64,000 nt of DNA. Source: Candidatus Dadabacteria bacterium. Its GTDB lineage: Bacteria > Desulfobacterota_D > UBA1144 > Nemesobacterales > Nemesobacteraceae. The stretch covers positions 198,346 through 262,345 of the forward strand of contig JAJECI010000007.1 of NCBI GenBank assembly GCA_022822065.1. Reading direction: 5' to 3'. Both the position numbers and the translations under genes were made by a program. The stretch's first letter is position 1. Each line of letters opens with the position of its first letter. A model generated the notes under the pieces. That model made no database searches, was not told the origin of the DNA, and was given only the letters and a program-made list of their open reading frames with translations. Shown in pieces: positions 4,423-11,251 of this stretch.

Positions 4423-4543
4423 CCTGCCCCATTGAAATCCTGATCAGCACCCAGAACAAAGTTCTAAGGATTTCCCGCCATTTATCCGTCGGATTCTGAC
4501 GGTTATACTTGGCACTGAAAAACCACTCGGGTGATTTAGAAAA

Positions 4544-6460
4544 ATGTCTCTTTTAAGTTTAAAAAAATACGAAGTGATAGTGATCGGAGCAGGCCACGCC
4601 GGGTGCGAGGCAGCACTCGCCGCGGCCAGAATGGACTGTACGACCCTGGTTCTCACGGCGAATATAGACACAATCGGGCTCATGTCGTGTAATCCTTCAA
4701 TAGGAGGAGTCGGCAAAGGTCATCTTGTAAAGGAAATAGACGCGCTTGGCGGAGAAATGGGAAAAGCCGCCGATACCGCGGCCATACAGTTCAGGAGACT
4801 CAACACCCGGAAGGGAGCGGCAGTGCAGGCAACCAGGATACAGGCCGATCGCCAGAGCTACAGAACCTACATGAAAAAGGCTCTTGAGAGCGAACCCAAC
4901 ATAGAGATAAAACAGGCGATGGTCGAAGAGTTTCTGGTCGACGGCAAAAAAGTCGCGGGGGTTAAAACCGCCCTCGGGGAGAAGTTCTTCTCGGACACCC
5001 TAGTAGTCACCCCGGGAACATTCCCTGGAGGACTAATACACATAGGGCTTACCCGGATCTCGTCGGGGCGGGCTGGGGAAGCCGCCGCGGGAGCCATATC
5101 GAACTCCTTCGCGGATCTGGGTTTCACAACAGGCAGGCTTAAAACCGGAACCCCTCCGCGCTTTGACGGAAGGACCATCGAGTGGGACAAGCTTGAGAGA
5201 CAGGACGGAGATGAGGATCCGGTGCCCTTTTCCTTTTCTCCCGGAAAAATCACGACCGAGCAGATGCCGTGCTACATAACCTACACGAACGAGGAAACCC
5301 ACCGCGTGATAAACGAAAACATGGACAAGTCCCCTCTTTACTCAGGCCTCATAAAGGGAATAGGTCCCAGGTACTGTCCTTCTATAGAGGACAAGGTAGT
5401 GAAGTTTCCCGACCGGAACCGCCACCAGATATTTCTCGAACCGGAGGGAAGAAACACCTATGAGATCTATCCCAACGGAATTTCAACCAGCCTCCCCATA
5501 GAAGTTCAGCATGAGTTCTCAAGAACCATGGAAGGCCTTCGCAACGTCGAAATAATGAGGCCGGGATACGCGGTTGAATACGACTTTCTCGATCCCACTC
5601 AGCTCGGCACGACCCTTGAATCGAAGCTTCTCGCAAACATATTCTTCGCGGGGCAGGTGAACGGAACCACTGGCTATGAGGAGGCGGCAAGCCAAGGACT
5701 CATGGCGGGCATAAACGCGGCGCTTCGGGTGAAAGGCAAGGATCCTTTCGTACTCGGGCGCTCGGAGGCCTATATAGGAATCCTGATCGATGATCTGGTC
5801 ACAAAAGGGGTTGACGAGCCCTACAGAATGTTCACCTCCAGGGCCGAGTACAGGCTCATACTTAGGGAGGATAACGCCGACCTTAGGCTCGGGGAGCTGG
5901 GACACGGCATAGGACTTCTCGGCGATGAGCGGATGGAGGAATTCCGCGCCAGAAAAACCGCGCTTGAAAGCGAACTCGCGAGGCTTGAGAATGAAAAGGT
6001 GGTTCCAAACGAGAAGACAAACAGGATTCTTGAGAATCTCGGTTCCCAGAGGATCAAAAAGCCACAGAGCCTAAAAGAGATACTCAGAAGACCCGGCTTC
6101 ACGTACGAAATGCTCGGCTTTATAGACTCCGCCGCGAATCCCGACATCTCCCCGAAGCTCGGAGCGCAGATAGAGATGGAAGTGAAATACGAGGGCTACA
6201 TAAAAAGGCAGAAAGAAGAGGTCGGGAAATTACAAAAATTCGAGAACATGAAAATCCCGGAAAAGTTCGAGTACGGAAGCATCCCGGGACTTTCAAATGA
6301 AATCGTTCAGAAACTGTCAAGAATAAAACCTGAATCGGTGGGGCAGGCAAGCCGCGTTTCAGGCATAACGCCCGCCGCTATATCCGTTCTGCTTGTGCAT
6401 ATAAGGAAAACGCGGGGGCTTGAGCAGGAAGCTCAGTTGAAATCAAGTTCCCCGTCGTAA
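4544..6460 (+). CDS. mnmG: MnmG (GidA), tRNA uridine-5-carboxymethylaminomethyl modification FAD enzyme
   Basis: With MnmE, this flavoprotein installs carboxymethylaminomethyl groups on U34 of tRNAs that read split codon boxes. It is 638 residues, full length for the family. The FAD-binding Rossmann motif GAGHAG is at 15-20. The signatures SCNPSIGG and KTGTPPR and the C-terminal tRNA-binding helical domain (from about 550) are present. It starts at the ATG in a run of A and T without a strong ribosome site. MnmE is not in the window. Its last 28 bases overlap the 3' end of a minus-strand 57-codon gene. Confidence 0.97.
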   Translation: MSLLSLKKYEVIVIGAGHAGCEAALAAARMDCTTLVLTANIDTIGLMSCNPSIGGVGKGHLVKEIDALGGEMGKAADTAAIQFRRLNTRKGAAVQATRIQADRQSYRTYMKKALESEPNIEIKQAMVEEFLVDGKKVAGVKTALGEKFFSDTLVVTPGTFPGGLIHIGLTRISSGRAGEAAAGAISNSFADLGFTTGRLKTGTPPRFDGRTIEWDKLERQDGDEDPVPFSFSPGKITTEQMPCYITYTNEETHRVINENMDKSPLYSGLIKGIGPRYCPSIEDKVVKFPDRNRHQIFLEPEGRNTYEIYPNGISTSLPIEVQHEFSRTMEGLRNVEIMRPGYAVEYDFLDPTQLGTTLESKLLANIFFAGQVNGTTGYEEAASQGLMAGINAALRVKGKDPFVLGRSEAYIGILIDDLVTKGVDEPYRMFTSRAEYRLILREDNADLRLGELGHGIGLLGDERMEEFRARKTALESELARLENEKVVPNEKTNRILENLGSQRIKKPQSLKEILRRPGFTYEMLGFIDSAANPDISPKLGAQIEMEVKYEGYIKRQKEEVGKLQKFENMKIPEKFEYGSIPGLSNEIVQKLSRIKPESVGQASRVSGITPAAISVLLVHIRKTRGLEQEAQLKSSSPS

Positions 6461-6664: not shown

Positions 6665-6763
6665 CAGTCCTGGCAAAAAAAATCTAACCCCTCGGCGCAA
6701 TCAGAACGGCATCCCGTTCGTCTCTAAAAGTAAGTAACCATCATGTTAAAGGAGGTGTACAAC

Positions 6764-7147
6764 ATGAAGAGCATTACGGTAATACTGGTCTTGCTGGCTT
6801 TCACTCTGACCGCCTTTGCTGCGAACGACCCGAGCATCAAAGGGGAGAAGCGCCGCGCGATCCAGGCAGCGATGGAAGAACACATCGGCCAGAACACTGT
6901 GAACGGGCATTACATTCTGTATGATACAATCACGGATGATGTCCTAAAGCTGAAACTCGCAAAGTTACATGACGGAATCGTGAAAAAGGCCGATTACTAC
7001 ATCAGTTGCGCGGATTTCCACGACCGCGACGGTACTTATTTTGACCTCGATTTTATGGTGGTCGAAAAAGACGGCAAGTTCAGAGCCTTACAAGGCATTG
7101 TACACAAGGTCGGGGACGTCAAACGGAAGTATCATCTGGAAGACTGA
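6764..7147 (+). CDS. Small secreted protein of unknown function, first gene of a sigma/anti-sigma island
   Basis: A 127-residue protein starting at the ATG 7 bases after a perfect AAAGGAGGT, not at the ATG 21 bases upstream that precedes this ribosome site. Residues 1-20 are a clear signal peptide ending TAFAAND, so the mature part is periplasmic or exported. The mature domain is charged and holds one Cys in YISCADF with DLDFMVVEKDGK after it, suggesting a small alpha/beta fold. I do not recognise a named domain. It is followed 70 bases later by an ECF sigma factor and a membrane-bound putative anti-sigma, so it may be their target or a sensor input. Confidence 0.75.
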   Translation: MKSITVILVLLAFTLTAFAANDPSIKGEKRRAIQAAMEEHIGQNTVNGHYILYDTITDDVLKLKLAKLHDGIVKKADYYISCADFHDRDGTYFDLDFMVVEKDGKFRALQGIVHKVGDVKRKYHLED

Positions 7148-7217
7148 GGCAGGCACGAAAACACAGAAACTCGGAAGCGGCAGAGGCGGCCGGGGTCGTG
7201 CCTAGCCGCGCGAAGCC

Positions 7218-7688
7218 ATGGCGGAATTACCATCACTCAGTGCAGAAGAACTATTACAAAGCGGATTTCAGTATGCCTACGCACTCACGCATCACTATCA
7301 TGATGCTGAGGATCTAGTGCAGGCTGCCTGGCTAAAATTGCATCAACGGTATGGAACGGTGACAACGAAGGCTCTTTTCTTTACAACTATCCGAAACCTA
7401 TACATAGACCAATACCGCAGACGGAAACGCATCCGGTTTATCACGCTCACCAGCGAACATGAGCACTTCTCGGCTTCAGGAAAGACCGCTAGAGAAGAAA
7501 CAAAGGTCGCGACAGAGCAGATGCTCGCCAAGCTGCGGGATATTGAGCGGGAAGCACTGTTTCTACATATCGTCGAGGGTTACTCCGCTAACGAGATTGC
7601 CACCCTCACCGGTAGACCGCGGGGAACTGTTCTGAGTCTTATTCATCGAAGCAGAAAGAAACTGGCCGCCTTGGATATAGCTGACTAA
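7218..7688 (+). CDS. ECF-type RNA polymerase sigma factor
   Basis: A 156-residue sigma-70 family protein with only regions 2 and 4, the ECF pattern. Region 2 runs from about residue 15 to 75 (HDAEDLVQAAWLKL, then TTIRNLYIDQYRRRK). Region 4 runs from about 108 to 150 (LRDIEREALFLHIVEGYS, a helix-turn-helix with NEIATLTGRPRGTVLSLIHR). It would direct RNA polymerase to a small set of promoters, probably including its own. It is 5 bases upstream of the membrane protein that probably holds it inactive. The class of signal is not evident from sequence. Confidence 0.9.
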   Translation: MAELPSLSAEELLQSGFQYAYALTHHYHDAEDLVQAAWLKLHQRYGTVTTKALFFTTIRNLYIDQYRRRKRIRFITLTSEHEHFSASGKTAREETKVATEQMLAKLRDIEREALFLHIVEGYSANEIATLTGRPRGTVLSLIHRSRKKLAALDIAD

Positions 7689-7693
7689 GTATC

Positions 7694-8260
7694 ATGAAGA
7701 ATCTGGAGCAAGAACTCAAAAACTACTATCAAAGCAAGCGCCTTGCGTCGCACAGGGTCGCGGCAATACAAGCCTCCGTCCACAAGACGGGCAAAACCCG
7801 CCACCGTGTTTCTTATCTTATCCCGTTGGCCGCAACCGTACTGCTGACAATCGGAATTGGGTTATGGTTGTACATGAGTACGGACAGCAGCTTTACCCAT
7901 GAGGTGGTCTCCGAGATCGGACACAATCACCACCAACACGGCGCACTGATGGTGGAATCAGGCCAGTACGGCGTTGTACAGGCCGCTCTCAGTAAGTTGG
8001 ATTTCCCCATCCGACCCCGGCGCGATGAATTGGTTAAGGATTTCGTCCTCGTAGGCGGCAAGTACTGCACCATTCAGGGTTCCCGTGCAGCTCAATTGAA
8101 GTTGAGGCACCGCAAAAGCCAAATTATTCATACCTTATATGTCTTGCCGATGGCGGATGAAATAAAAGATATCGAACCAGGTGTCTATAAAACGAACGGC
8201 TTGCAAGTAGAGCTGTGGACCGATCAGTTGCTTCTCTACGGCCTTGCCCACGGTCAATAA
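7694..8260 (+). CDS. Putative membrane-anchored anti-sigma factor
   Basis: A 188-residue protein with a short basic N-terminal part (1-39), one membrane helix (about 41-60) and a periplasmic part of about 125 residues containing a His cluster (GHNHHQHG, 77-84) and a Cys near 120. This topology and its place 5 bases after an ECF sigma gene are typical of anti-sigma factors. The N-terminal part is too short for a classical zinc anti-sigma domain and lacks the HxxxCxxC motif, so the assignment rests on context. The His-rich patch after the membrane helix could bind metal; this is inference. Confidence 0.65.
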   Translation: MKNLEQELKNYYQSKRLASHRVAAIQASVHKTGKTRHRVSYLIPLAATVLLTIGIGLWLYMSTDSSFTHEVVSEIGHNHHQHGALMVESGQYGVVQAALSKLDFPIRPRRDELVKDFVLVGGKYCTIQGSRAAQLKLRHRKSQIIHTLYVLPMADEIKDIEPGVYKTNGLQVELWTDQLLLYGLAHGQ

Positions 8261-8363
8261 TCGATTAGAAAGCAACTATCTTGGATAAACAAGTAGTCAT
8301 CGACTTATATCTATTCTTTATTTTGCTTGAGATAACTGAAATTTGTGGGATTTCTTAAAACTA

Positions 8364-8376
8364 ATCACAGTGTGAT
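8364..8376. repeat. 13-base perfect palindrome in the gap after the anti-sigma gene
   Basis: ATCACA and TGTGAT flank a central G. It resembles a small regulator site, but it lies about 104 bases downstream of the anti-sigma gene and no plus-strand gene follows, so a regulatory role is doubtful. The rest of 8261-8450 is AT-rich and shows nothing else. Confidence 0.25.
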
Positions 8377-8450
8377 AAGATCCGTCAAAAACTGTATTTC
8401 TTGAAATTTATACTTGATAGTGAACGCGCGCGGTCATGTAAGTTCAGGAT

Positions 8451-8531
8451 TAGGGGATAGCAAAAGGGTCGGGTTTCAGGCTTCCTCCTTTCCCGACCCT
8501 TAAAGCCACGTTCCGGGCTTGCTGTCCCCTA
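8451..8531 (-). terminator. Large nested hairpin between convergent genes, probable terminator of the DUF255 gene
   Basis: Outer arms 8451-8463 and 8519-8531 pair over 13 bases with one wobble. Inner arms AAGGGTCGGG (8464-8473) and CCCGACCCTT (8492-8501) pair perfectly and abut the outer left arm. On the minus strand the inner stem is followed by a short T run, and the structure begins 18 bases after the stop of the DUF255 gene. It may also stop transcription from the sigma island. Confidence 0.55.
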
Positions 8532-8548
8532 TTATACCGCAAACACCC

Positions 8549-10660
8549 CTATTCAGAGTCTTTTCCAGAGCTCTGTCCTTGCCTTATAAGCTCGAGCATC
8601 CGCACCGGATCGTCTGTCGGAAGACGGCACTCGTAATTCGAGCACACGTACGCCGCGGTTTTTCCGTTAATGGAGCTATGGCTCTGCGTGTATGGAGCGA
8701 TTTTTGAAATCTCCTCTCCATTTGCCGCATCTTTCAATATCACCACCTTGTTCGGCAGGTACTCGCTCGAGAGGACCTCGAGAAACTGGCGGGTCTCGGG
8801 GGAATTTCTGTCCCCGGCTATCACTATCTCGAAAGAAGGACCCAGCATGAAGTCAAGAGAGTTCATGTGCATCGAAAAAGAAGCGGGGTGCCTTGAGATC
8901 TGAGAGGAAAAAGCCGCAGCCATCCGGGCCGCCCTGTCTTCAAGTTCGGGGTCGCCGGTGAGCCTCGCTATTTTCAGGATGTTAAGCACGGAAACCGAGT
9001 TTCCGGACGGAAGCGCCCCGTCGTAAATTTCCTTCTGTCTGGTTATCAGAGCTTCGCCGTCATCGGCAGTGAAGAAAAAACCCGCGAACTCTTCGTCCCA
9101 GAAATGTTCGAACTGATCCCGACAAAGAGAAATAGCCAAAGCGAGACATTTTTCGTCGAAAACGCTTTCATAATATTCAAGAAGGCCCCATATGAAAAAG
9201 GCGTAATCATCAACGCTTGCCATTATGCCCGCCTCTCCCTCGCGGTAGCGATGAAGAAGCCTTCCGTCGCGGACGAGGTTCTGCCTTATGAATTCTATCG
9301 CGCCACGAGCGACGTCAGAATACCTTTTCTCCCCGAAAGCCGCCGCCGCTTTTGAAAACGCGGCTATCGCTACTCCGTTCCAGTCCGTCAGCACCTTGTC
9401 GTCCTTATAAGGATGAGCTCTTTTTTCCCTGCAAGCGAAAAGCCGCTCCCGCAAACCCTCAATTCTTTGCCCAAGCTCCTCGGCGCTGACCCCGAGCCGA
9501 GCGGCCGTGTCGTCAAGGGGCTCTTTCAGATGAAATATGTTCCTGTCGCTTTGCTCTCCCGTCGCCTCGTCCGTGAAATTTCCGCTGCGAGAAAGATTGT
9601 AGACGTCTGAGAGAAGCTCCGCGTCCTCCGCTCCCAAAAGTTCCTCTATCTCACCCACGGTCCAGATATAGAACTTGCCTTCCTCCCCTTCGCTGTCGGC
9701 ATCTTCGGCCGAGTAAATACCTCCTTCGGGAGAGGTCATGTCGCGAATCAGGTATTCGAGTATTTCCCTCGCTTTTTTTTCGTAAAACGGGTTTTTCGTG
9801 ATCTGCCACGCTTCTGTGTAAGTGATTGCCAAAAGCGCCTGGTCGTAAAGCATCTTCTCGAAATGGGGGACAAGCCATCGCGAGTCGGTCGAATACCTGT
9901 GAAAACCGAAGCCCACATGGTCGTATATACCACCCCTTCCCATGGCAAGAAGGGTCCGCTCGACCATCCTCAAGGAAGCATCCTTCCCGGTGCGCCCGTA
10001 ATACCTCATCAAAAACATCAGGTTGTGGGGAGTCGGAAATTTAGGAGCTTTCCCGAAGCCGCCTTCATCGGGGTCGAAAGTCGAAAGAAAGTAACTGTAG
10101 GCCTGATCAAGGGTCTTCTCATTAAGCAGGGAGGTCCCGACTCTCCGCAAAGAGTCTCCTAAGCTCGAGACGGCGTCGGTTATCTGCCGGGCCGACTCCA
10201 GCACCTCTTCCCTTTTGTTCTCCCAGAGCTCTTTTATCGCCGGCACGAGCTCCTTCATTCCTACCCTCCCGTAGCGGTTCTCCTTCGGTATGTAGGTTCC
10301 GGCGAAAAAGGGGTTTCCCTCGGGCGTCATGACTATGTTAAGAGGCCAGCCGCACCCTTTCCTTGAAATCACGTGACAGACGGTCATGTAGATATTGTCG
10401 ATGTCGGGACGCTCCTCCCTGTCGACCTTGATAGAGACGAAGTTCTCGTTCATGAGCCCCGCCACCTCGGCGTCCTCAAAGGATTCGCGCTCCATAACGT
10501 GGCACCAGTGACAGGTCGAGTATCCTATGGAAAGAAATACCGGCCTCCCAAGTTCCCGGGCTCTCTCGAACGCCTCCTCTCCCCACGGATACCAGTCAAC
10601 TGGGTTCTCCGCGTGCTGGAGAAGATAGGGGCTCTTTTCGTTTTTAAGTCTGTTTGACAC
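8549..10660 (-). CDS. DUF255 thioredoxin-domain protein (YyaL / SPATA20-like)
   Basis: A 703-residue cytosolic protein with an N-terminal thioredoxin-like DUF255 domain followed by a long alpha/alpha toroid resembling six-hairpin glycosidases. The redox motif is STCHWCH, Cys50 and Cys53, after the family opening [19 protein letters not shown]. The second part shows [15 protein letters not shown] and [10 protein letters not shown], also family signatures. The enzyme activity is unknown; family members are described as thioredoxin-domain proteins that may act on N-acetyl-glucosamine-like substrates or protein thiols. It has no operon partner and is divergent from the Nudix gene at 10835. Confidence 0.93.
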
Positions 10661-10834: not shown

Positions 10835-11251
10835 ATGCGTAAACCCGTACAAAAGGCAGGTGTCGTCGCCTACAGGGAAAACAACCTCGGGGAAATTGAA
10901 GTCATTCTGGTGAGTTCAAGAAAACTCAATAATTCATGGGTTTTTCCCGCCGGAGGAGTCGACTACGGTGAAACTCCAGCTGAGGCAGCGGAGAGGGAAT
11001 GTCTTGAGGAAAGCGGGTACAAGGTGGAAATAGAGCAGCCTCTCGACATAATGGTCATTGAAGGGGGAAAAAGACATGTTCTCTACACTTTTTTCCGCGC
11101 CAGGGCCATTGAGGATACGGGAGATTACGAAAGGGATAGAAAAAGAAAATGGTGCGGGGTTGACGACCTTCCCGATACGGTCGCTTACATGTTTCGGGAA
11201 GTCGCGGAAACTTTTCAGAAAAATATCCTAGGCCCCCAGTCCCGGGGCTGA
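10835..11251 (+). CDS. Nudix hydrolase
   Basis: A 138-residue Nudix-fold pyrophosphohydrolase. The Nudix box is complete from Gly40 to Tyr62, with Glu46 and the core R54-E55...E58-E59 and G61, which bind magnesium. The early motif WVFPAGGVDYGE and the overall size resemble the diphosphoinositol-polyphosphate / Ap4A branch, but the substrate cannot be read from sequence. It stands 57 bases ahead of a methyltransferase on the same strand. Confidence 0.9.
   Translation: MRKPVQKAGVVAYRENNLGEIEVILVSSRKLNNSWVFPAGGVDYGETPAEAAERECLEESGYKVEIEQPLDIMVIEGGKRHVLYTFFRARAIEDTGDYERDRKRKWCGVDDLPDTVAYMFREVAETFQKNILGPQSRG

Follow-up and report, generated by a model that had tools for sequence, protein, structure and literature searches.

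The 64,000-nucleotide stretch of Candidatus Dadabacteria DNA analysed here (the window), which comes from an uncultivated marine bacterium, contains three genes on one strand, which encode a secreted protein, an ECF sigma factor and a membrane protein and are separated by gaps of 70 and 5 nt. With reasonable confidence we interpret them as an envelope-stress system built around an ECF sigma factor that controls its own operon, related to ECF26 but distinct from it, in which the signal would be a thiol or redox stress and the secreted protein mainly an output. Coordinates, order, strand and gaps of the trio agree with an earlier description made without database searches (the sequence-only reading). 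The features are:

6697 to 6722, plus strand: predicted module promoter, GCAATCA as -35-like element (6697-6703), 15 nt, CGTC as -10-like element (6719-6722); from motif conservation and pattern searches
6749 to 6756, plus strand: ribosome-binding site AAGGAGGT ahead of the ATG at 6764; from the sequence and homologue starts
6764 to 7147, plus strand: secreted protein of 127 aa, signal peptide at about residues 1-19, predicted helix and five strands, Cys82 in SCADF (codon 7007-7009)
7218 to 7688, plus strand: ECF sigma factor of 156 aa with regions 2 and 4; from Pfam, NCBIfam and the tree clade
7694 to 8260, plus strand: predicted membrane anti-sigma factor of 188 aa, Cys125 codon at 8066-8068; from the structure model, hhalign and conservation
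7919 to 7942, plus strand: His-rich patch GHNHHQHG, only its Asn-His pair (residues 78-79) conserved
8451 to 8531, no strand assigned: strong branched hairpin, located where the anti-sigma gene and the DUF255 gene converge, in this genome only

The secreted protein probably starts at 6764, since its relatives begin there and the alternative ATG at 6743 would overlap the AAGGAGGT site. In the 1.6 Mb genome (G000) the trio is flanked by mnmG (4544-6460) and a convergent DUF255/Thioredox_DsbH gene (8549-10660). The sequence-only reading let the module end in a large hairpin. A stable hairpin is indeed present (-46.5 kcal/mol, z -5.8), but it stands outside the conserved module, since it lies 190 nt past the last stop codon, has no T-run and occurs in no other genome of the genus. 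No terminator-like site was found at the hairpin and the comparison with Rfam gave no match; roles as terminator or as conserved RNA were rejected.

An alignment of the secreted protein was used to scan 84,980 species genomes and delivered 49 loci. At 27 of these the trio is kept in the same order, with the anti-sigma gene behind the sigma gene on the same strand, in at least four phyla; at the remaining loci the secreted gene is solitary. The association of the trio exceeds chance. The genes are thus kept together elsewhere, within the genus and across phyla, which supports the proposal of the sequence-only reading that sigma factor, membrane anti-sigma and secreted protein form one functional module. 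Among the hosts are Dadabacteria, Deltaproteobacteria/Desulfobacterota, Gammaproteobacteria (Thiodiazotropha, Chromatiales, Thiotrichales), one alphaproteobacterium and one Acidobacteriota MAG. As these genomes are almost all MAGs, absences of module members carry little weight. Among 14 genomes surveyed in the genus, the anti-sigma gene is present in 12 (in one at a contig end) and the secreted gene in 13. The intergenic spacing at the trio loci ranges from a gap of 302 nt to overlaps of 4-23 nt, with values of -4 or -8 being common, and the frequency of overlaps suggests translational coupling.

The middle gene encodes what is, by domain content, an ordinary ECF sigma factor, small and with regions 2 and 4 only (Sigma70_r2, 3e-9, and Sigma70_r4_2, 2.8e-12, in Pfam, above cut-off; 65 bits against NCBIfam TIGR02937 sigma70-ECF, cut-off 42.9). 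A maximum-likelihood tree was calculated from 16 sigma factors of the trio or of motif-linked pairs (see below) and 12 sigma factors partnered with COG5662-type anti-sigmas. The former fall into one clade (support 96/96, recovered in 98% of the bootstrap trees), apart from the 12 comparison sigmas. These include one whose gene neighbours encode a serine protease and a VOC-family (glyoxalase superfamily) protein, an arrangement described for RpoE6 of S. meliloti (PMC6180224), and one from Sulfitobacter near a sulfite oxidase gene. The sigma factor of the window was accordingly not placed in ECF26 but in a clade of its own beside the COG5662-partnered sigmas, and it may belong to another named ECF group.

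The upstream regions of 50 secreted genes (49 loci and the window) were compared, and 29 of them contain the motif GCAATCA-N15-CGTT/CGTC at about 60-130 nt ahead of the start codon, where 0.0025 are expected from shuffled sequences. The count rises to 33 once TGTT/TGTC is allowed (0.045 expected). Within these 33 copies, GCAATCA is invariant, as is the T ahead of the -10 box, and the base preceding GCAATCA is T in 30. With the window included, 25 of the 28 trio loci carry the motif; of the other three, L043 is truncated by the end of its contig, and L045 and L054 show near variants. A pattern search in the 14 genomes of the genus found the site in every trio-bearing genome, while the reversed pattern, used as control, gave at most one match per genome and was missing from nearly all genomes. 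Across 44 genomes of the order the strict pattern matches only four sites, of which two are trio promoters belonging to other families; across 369 gammaproteobacterial genomes it matches six. Three of these six belong to secreted-gene or sigma operons already known from our scan, and three lie inside genes or have no plausible gene behind them, about the number which chance allows for a pattern of this length. Matches L163-L168, L170-L173, L240, L242 and L243 were rejected as targets for the same kind of reason, being inside genes or without a gene behind them, and are taken as chance.

The solitary secreted genes are informative on which sigma factor may read this motif. Eight of them carry it, and a sigma/anti-sigma pair is encoded elsewhere in five of these eight genomes; among the 13 genomes with a motif-less solitary secreted gene, none has an anti-sigma (Fisher p 0.003). 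In the genomes of the motif-bearing solitary loci L037, L055 and L059 the anti-sigma was not found. Where sequence upstream of the sigma gene is available, the separate pairs are preceded by the same motif as well (four of four: G102, G105, G107 and G117). This co-occurrence is the strongest, though circumstantial, evidence that the sigma factor reads GCAATCA-N15-CGTY, which we infer to be the promoter of the module. The secreted gene would be a member of the same predicted regulon even when it is solitary.

Concerning the membrane protein, resemblance to RsiW-type anti-sigmas was at first our own assumption, which was then put to a profile comparison. The comparison set consisted of nine COG5662 proteins, fetched with a consensus, that are annotated as 'anti-sigma factor' and adjoin ECF sigma genes on plasmids. 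Aligned by hhalign, the window family matches the COG5662-type anti-sigmas with a probability of 97.6% (E 2.9e-12) over 158 columns, from the transmembrane helix to the C-terminus, whereas the profile of the secreted protein, used as control, gave no alignment with them. By this homology the membrane protein is an anti-sigma relative with a periplasmic domain of the COG5662/RsiW type, as in ECF26 systems. In ECF26 the anti-sigma usually carries a COG5662 domain (PMC3511301). The designation of the module as unclassified in the sequence-only reading is half right, since the outer domain fits this described type.

The protein is predicted to be single-pass. In its structure model (pLDDT 81), two short helices at the N-terminus are followed by a long transmembrane helix (42-80) and a well-predicted periplasmic domain (about 66-188), which leaves a short cytoplasmic part of approximately residues 1-39. 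A class I N-terminal anti-sigma domain is absent: neither a zf-HC2-like region nor the usual zinc motif Hx3CxxC is present, the latter as the sequence-only reading had remarked. By contrast, seven of the nine COG5662 proteins match zf-HC2 at E <= 1, and no such match is seen for the window protein or among the family matches of its 20 relatives. The predicted helices at 2-14 and 19-30 (pLDDT about 47-70) may correspond to the class II, CnrY-like two-helix segment of less than 50 aa that binds the sigma factor. The window protein has no match in Pfam or among PDB sequences, while eight of the 20 anti-sigma relatives match DUF3379 (PF11859) weakly (best E 6.7e-4). The best fold matches of the model are RseB chains, which are weak (E 0.03). 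Cys125, in the motif GG[KR]YC[ST], is invariant and is the sole periplasmic cysteine in every full-length anti-sigma relative; the nine COG5662 comparison proteins, unlike this family, have no counterpart of it.

The secreted protein shares this feature. All 47 complete mature proteins contain exactly one cysteine, which lies in SCADF (Cys82 in the window). Its description as a single-Cys protein of no known domain holds, as Pfam, NCBIfam and PDB sequences gave no match. Lacking a Pfam match, it is not of the 'lipoprotein 15' type. In the structure model (pLDDT 87.6) one helix packs against five strands, and the fold search returned only cystatin/NTF2-like proteins at E 0.04 or worse, none of them significant. 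A fold class of this kind is suggested by the model, without pointing to a function.

Further genes behind the motif hint at what the sigma factor may control. In five Dadabacteria (G000, the window genome, G005, G009, G011 and G013) a second lgt gene, with lnt behind it, is preceded at 209-211 nt by a near-identical site. These are five of 12 genomes of the genus with a readable lgt upstream region; the remaining ones carry a different sequence at that place, so that this target would be lineage-specific. The alphaproteobacterium G123 has two more sites, one ahead of the gene for a diheme cytochrome c peroxidase (CCP_MauG), the other ahead of that for a secreted thioredoxin-like protein. Apart from a diheme peroxidase gene directly after the secreted gene at L030, these two targets are seen in one genome each. 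In G102, G105 and G107 the sigma/anti-sigma pair is followed by the gene of a secreted HbpS-like protein. Each member is weak alone, and as a whole the candidate regulon suggests maintenance of periplasmic redox state, heme and lipoproteins. Taken together, the motif-bearing genes would point to a regulon for thiol/oxidant stress in the envelope, of which the secreted protein would be an output. A NUDIX gene at window position 10835 was rejected as a member, its site being present only in G009 and absent from the window.

We propose the following circuit. The short N-terminal part of the anti-sigma would tether the sigma factor to the inner side of the membrane. A periplasmic signal, most likely a thiol-reactive oxidant or a related redox stress read by Cys125, would act on the RsiW/COG5662-type outer domain and free the sigma factor. 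As the conserved motif indicates, the freed sigma would transcribe from GCAATCA-N15-CGTY promoters, first of all that of its own operon. It would also transcribe a few further envelope genes, which differ between lineages, namely those for diheme cytochrome c peroxidase, periplasmic thioredoxin and HbpS-like protein and the second lgt-lnt pair. The first product of the operon, the secreted single-Cys protein, would mainly be an output that protects or repairs something periplasmic, a role suggested by the candidate regulon, and feedback on the anti-sigma may occur.

The sequence-only reading had placed the secreted protein at the sensing end. It would then bind the periplasmic domain of the anti-sigma, and a ligand or redox change on it would release the sigma factor, in the manner of RseB, which binds RseA, and of CnrX, which binds CnrY. 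The position of the secreted gene as first in a tightly coupled operon, the one invariant cysteine of both proteins on the same side of the membrane and the RseB matches of the anti-sigma model would agree with such a sensor. However, in several genomes the secreted gene is separated from the pair and is preceded by a separate motif copy, which fits an output, and 13 further genomes have neither a detected pair nor the motif, which argues for a role independent of the anti-sigma. An output is therefore the more likely role, and we regard the sensor role as unlikely.

A second question concerns the signal. Sulfite or reactive sulfur, as for RpoE1 and RpoE4 of S. meliloti (ECF26), would be compatible with the homologous anti-sigma domain, the equal promoter spacing (GGAATA-N16-CGTC compared with GCAATC-N16-CGTY; PMC6180224), the many hosts from sulfur-oxidising groups and a cysteine which sulfite could modify. 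On the other hand, no sulfite-oxidising enzyme is encoded near the loci or behind the motif, and the ECF26 members RpoE3 and RpoE6 reportedly show no induction by compounds that generate sulfite (PMC3511301). A response to sulfite thus appears improbable to us. The favoured thiol or oxidant signal is suggested by a lone invariant cysteine in each of two proteins facing the same compartment, which invites a redox reading as for OsrA, where the response to H2O2 requires Cys179, a residue exposed to the periplasm (PMC3420878). The redox half of what the sequence-only reading had guessed thereby gains some support, from these cysteines and from the predicted regulon, although the single cysteine could instead be structural or a metal ligand. 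A more speculative extension, to which we give a low probability, is that Cys82 and Cys125 form a redox pair across the two proteins, by mixed disulfide or competition, so that the output would report the periplasmic thiol status to the switch; in that case the module would define a separate ECF group, whose secreted co-regulator would belong to a new family.

Metal sensing by the His-rich loop together with the secreted protein was the main suggestion of the sequence-only reading. The patch GHNHHQHG is present as described (residues 76-83) and the architecture resembles CnrYXH, but only Asn78-His79 is invariant in 20 diverse relatives and no metal transport gene is found near the loci or behind the motif. 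Conservation speaks against the patch as metal site, and a metal-controlled module is very improbable. That the genes are merely kept together, the membrane protein being no anti-sigma, receives hardly any credence from us: the protein is homologous to COG5662-type anti-sigmas, and the motif is common to the genes even where they are separated.

Among known systems, sulfite-responsive ECF26 operons combine a COG5662 anti-sigma with a secreted first gene (PMC3511301, PMC6180224). The module shares with SMc01418-RpoE1-EcfR1 and RpoE4-EcfR4 of S. meliloti (PMC3511301, PMC6180224) the operon plan of secreted protein, ECF sigma and single-pass anti-sigma, the (here predicted) autoregulation and the homologous periplasmic domain. 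ECF26 promoters have GGAATA at -35 and CGT at -10 (PMC6180224), so that both kinds show a G.AAT. box and a CGT box at identical spacing. The differences are the -35 element, GCAATCA instead of GGAATA, by which the ECF26 promoter form (-35 GGAATA / -10 GT) is missed, the separate sigma clade, and an anti-sigma without zf-HC2-like region and with a much shorter cytoplasmic part. EcfF-OsrA of Bradyrhizobium (ECF16, DUF1109; PMC3420878) is similar in its membrane anti-sigma with a periplasm-exposed cysteine and in a regulon of periplasmic thiol and repair functions, which is predicted in our case; OsrA, however, has six transmembrane helices and is not homologous. The combination of ECF sigma, membrane anti-sigma and periplasmic partner is also known from RpoE-RseA-RseB and CnrH-CnrY-CnrX, and CnrY binds by two short helices (PMC7406223), similar to the two that the model predicts here. 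Unlike in those systems, no sequence homology of the partners is seen and contact of the secreted protein with the anti-sigma is only hypothetical. Our literature searches found no paper on sigma factors of Dadabacteria, on DUF3379 or on a GCAATCA sigma promoter of this kind, nor a description of such a three-gene circuit.

With the motif, an anonymous cluster of secreted protein and sigma factor becomes a predicted regulon that is linked to the ECF26 sulfite/envelope systems, whose mode of activation the literature still treats as hypothetical (PMC6180224). The circuit is conserved across phyla together with its own promoter, and it can be named completely and in testable form, with sigma factor, brake, promoter, candidate regulon and a new secreted protein family, in hosts that are almost all uncultivated. 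The invariant single cysteine of the anti-sigma may provide a handle on how a COG5662/RsiW-type periplasmic domain senses.

Some minor observations are added here. The genus has two lgt paralogues of about 37-41% identity (G000:C10:239880-242454, L117, and G000:C11:58645-59361); one heads a small-ORF/lgt/lnt operon, with a promoter block of about 50 nt that is nearly identical to that of the trio in five genomes. Two further motif copies lie not far from trios, one about 4 kb away and upstream of the NUDIX gene (L120; G009:C28, locus position 4479, minus strand) and one about 10 kb away with no clear gene behind it (L119; G011:C22:160380). A search of plasmids for the secreted protein gave no match. 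A distant homologue (L085; G034:C59:11148-11498, E 1.4e-15) comes from a Dadabacteria genome that is larger and has no close trio. Relatives in Nitrospirales (L024-L027) are mostly extended at the C-terminus and lack the motif, and no anti-sigma was detected with them; at two of these loci (L025 and L026) the secreted gene lies behind a SUMF1-like (FGE-sulfatase) gene, and farther upstream there is a cytochrome c gene.
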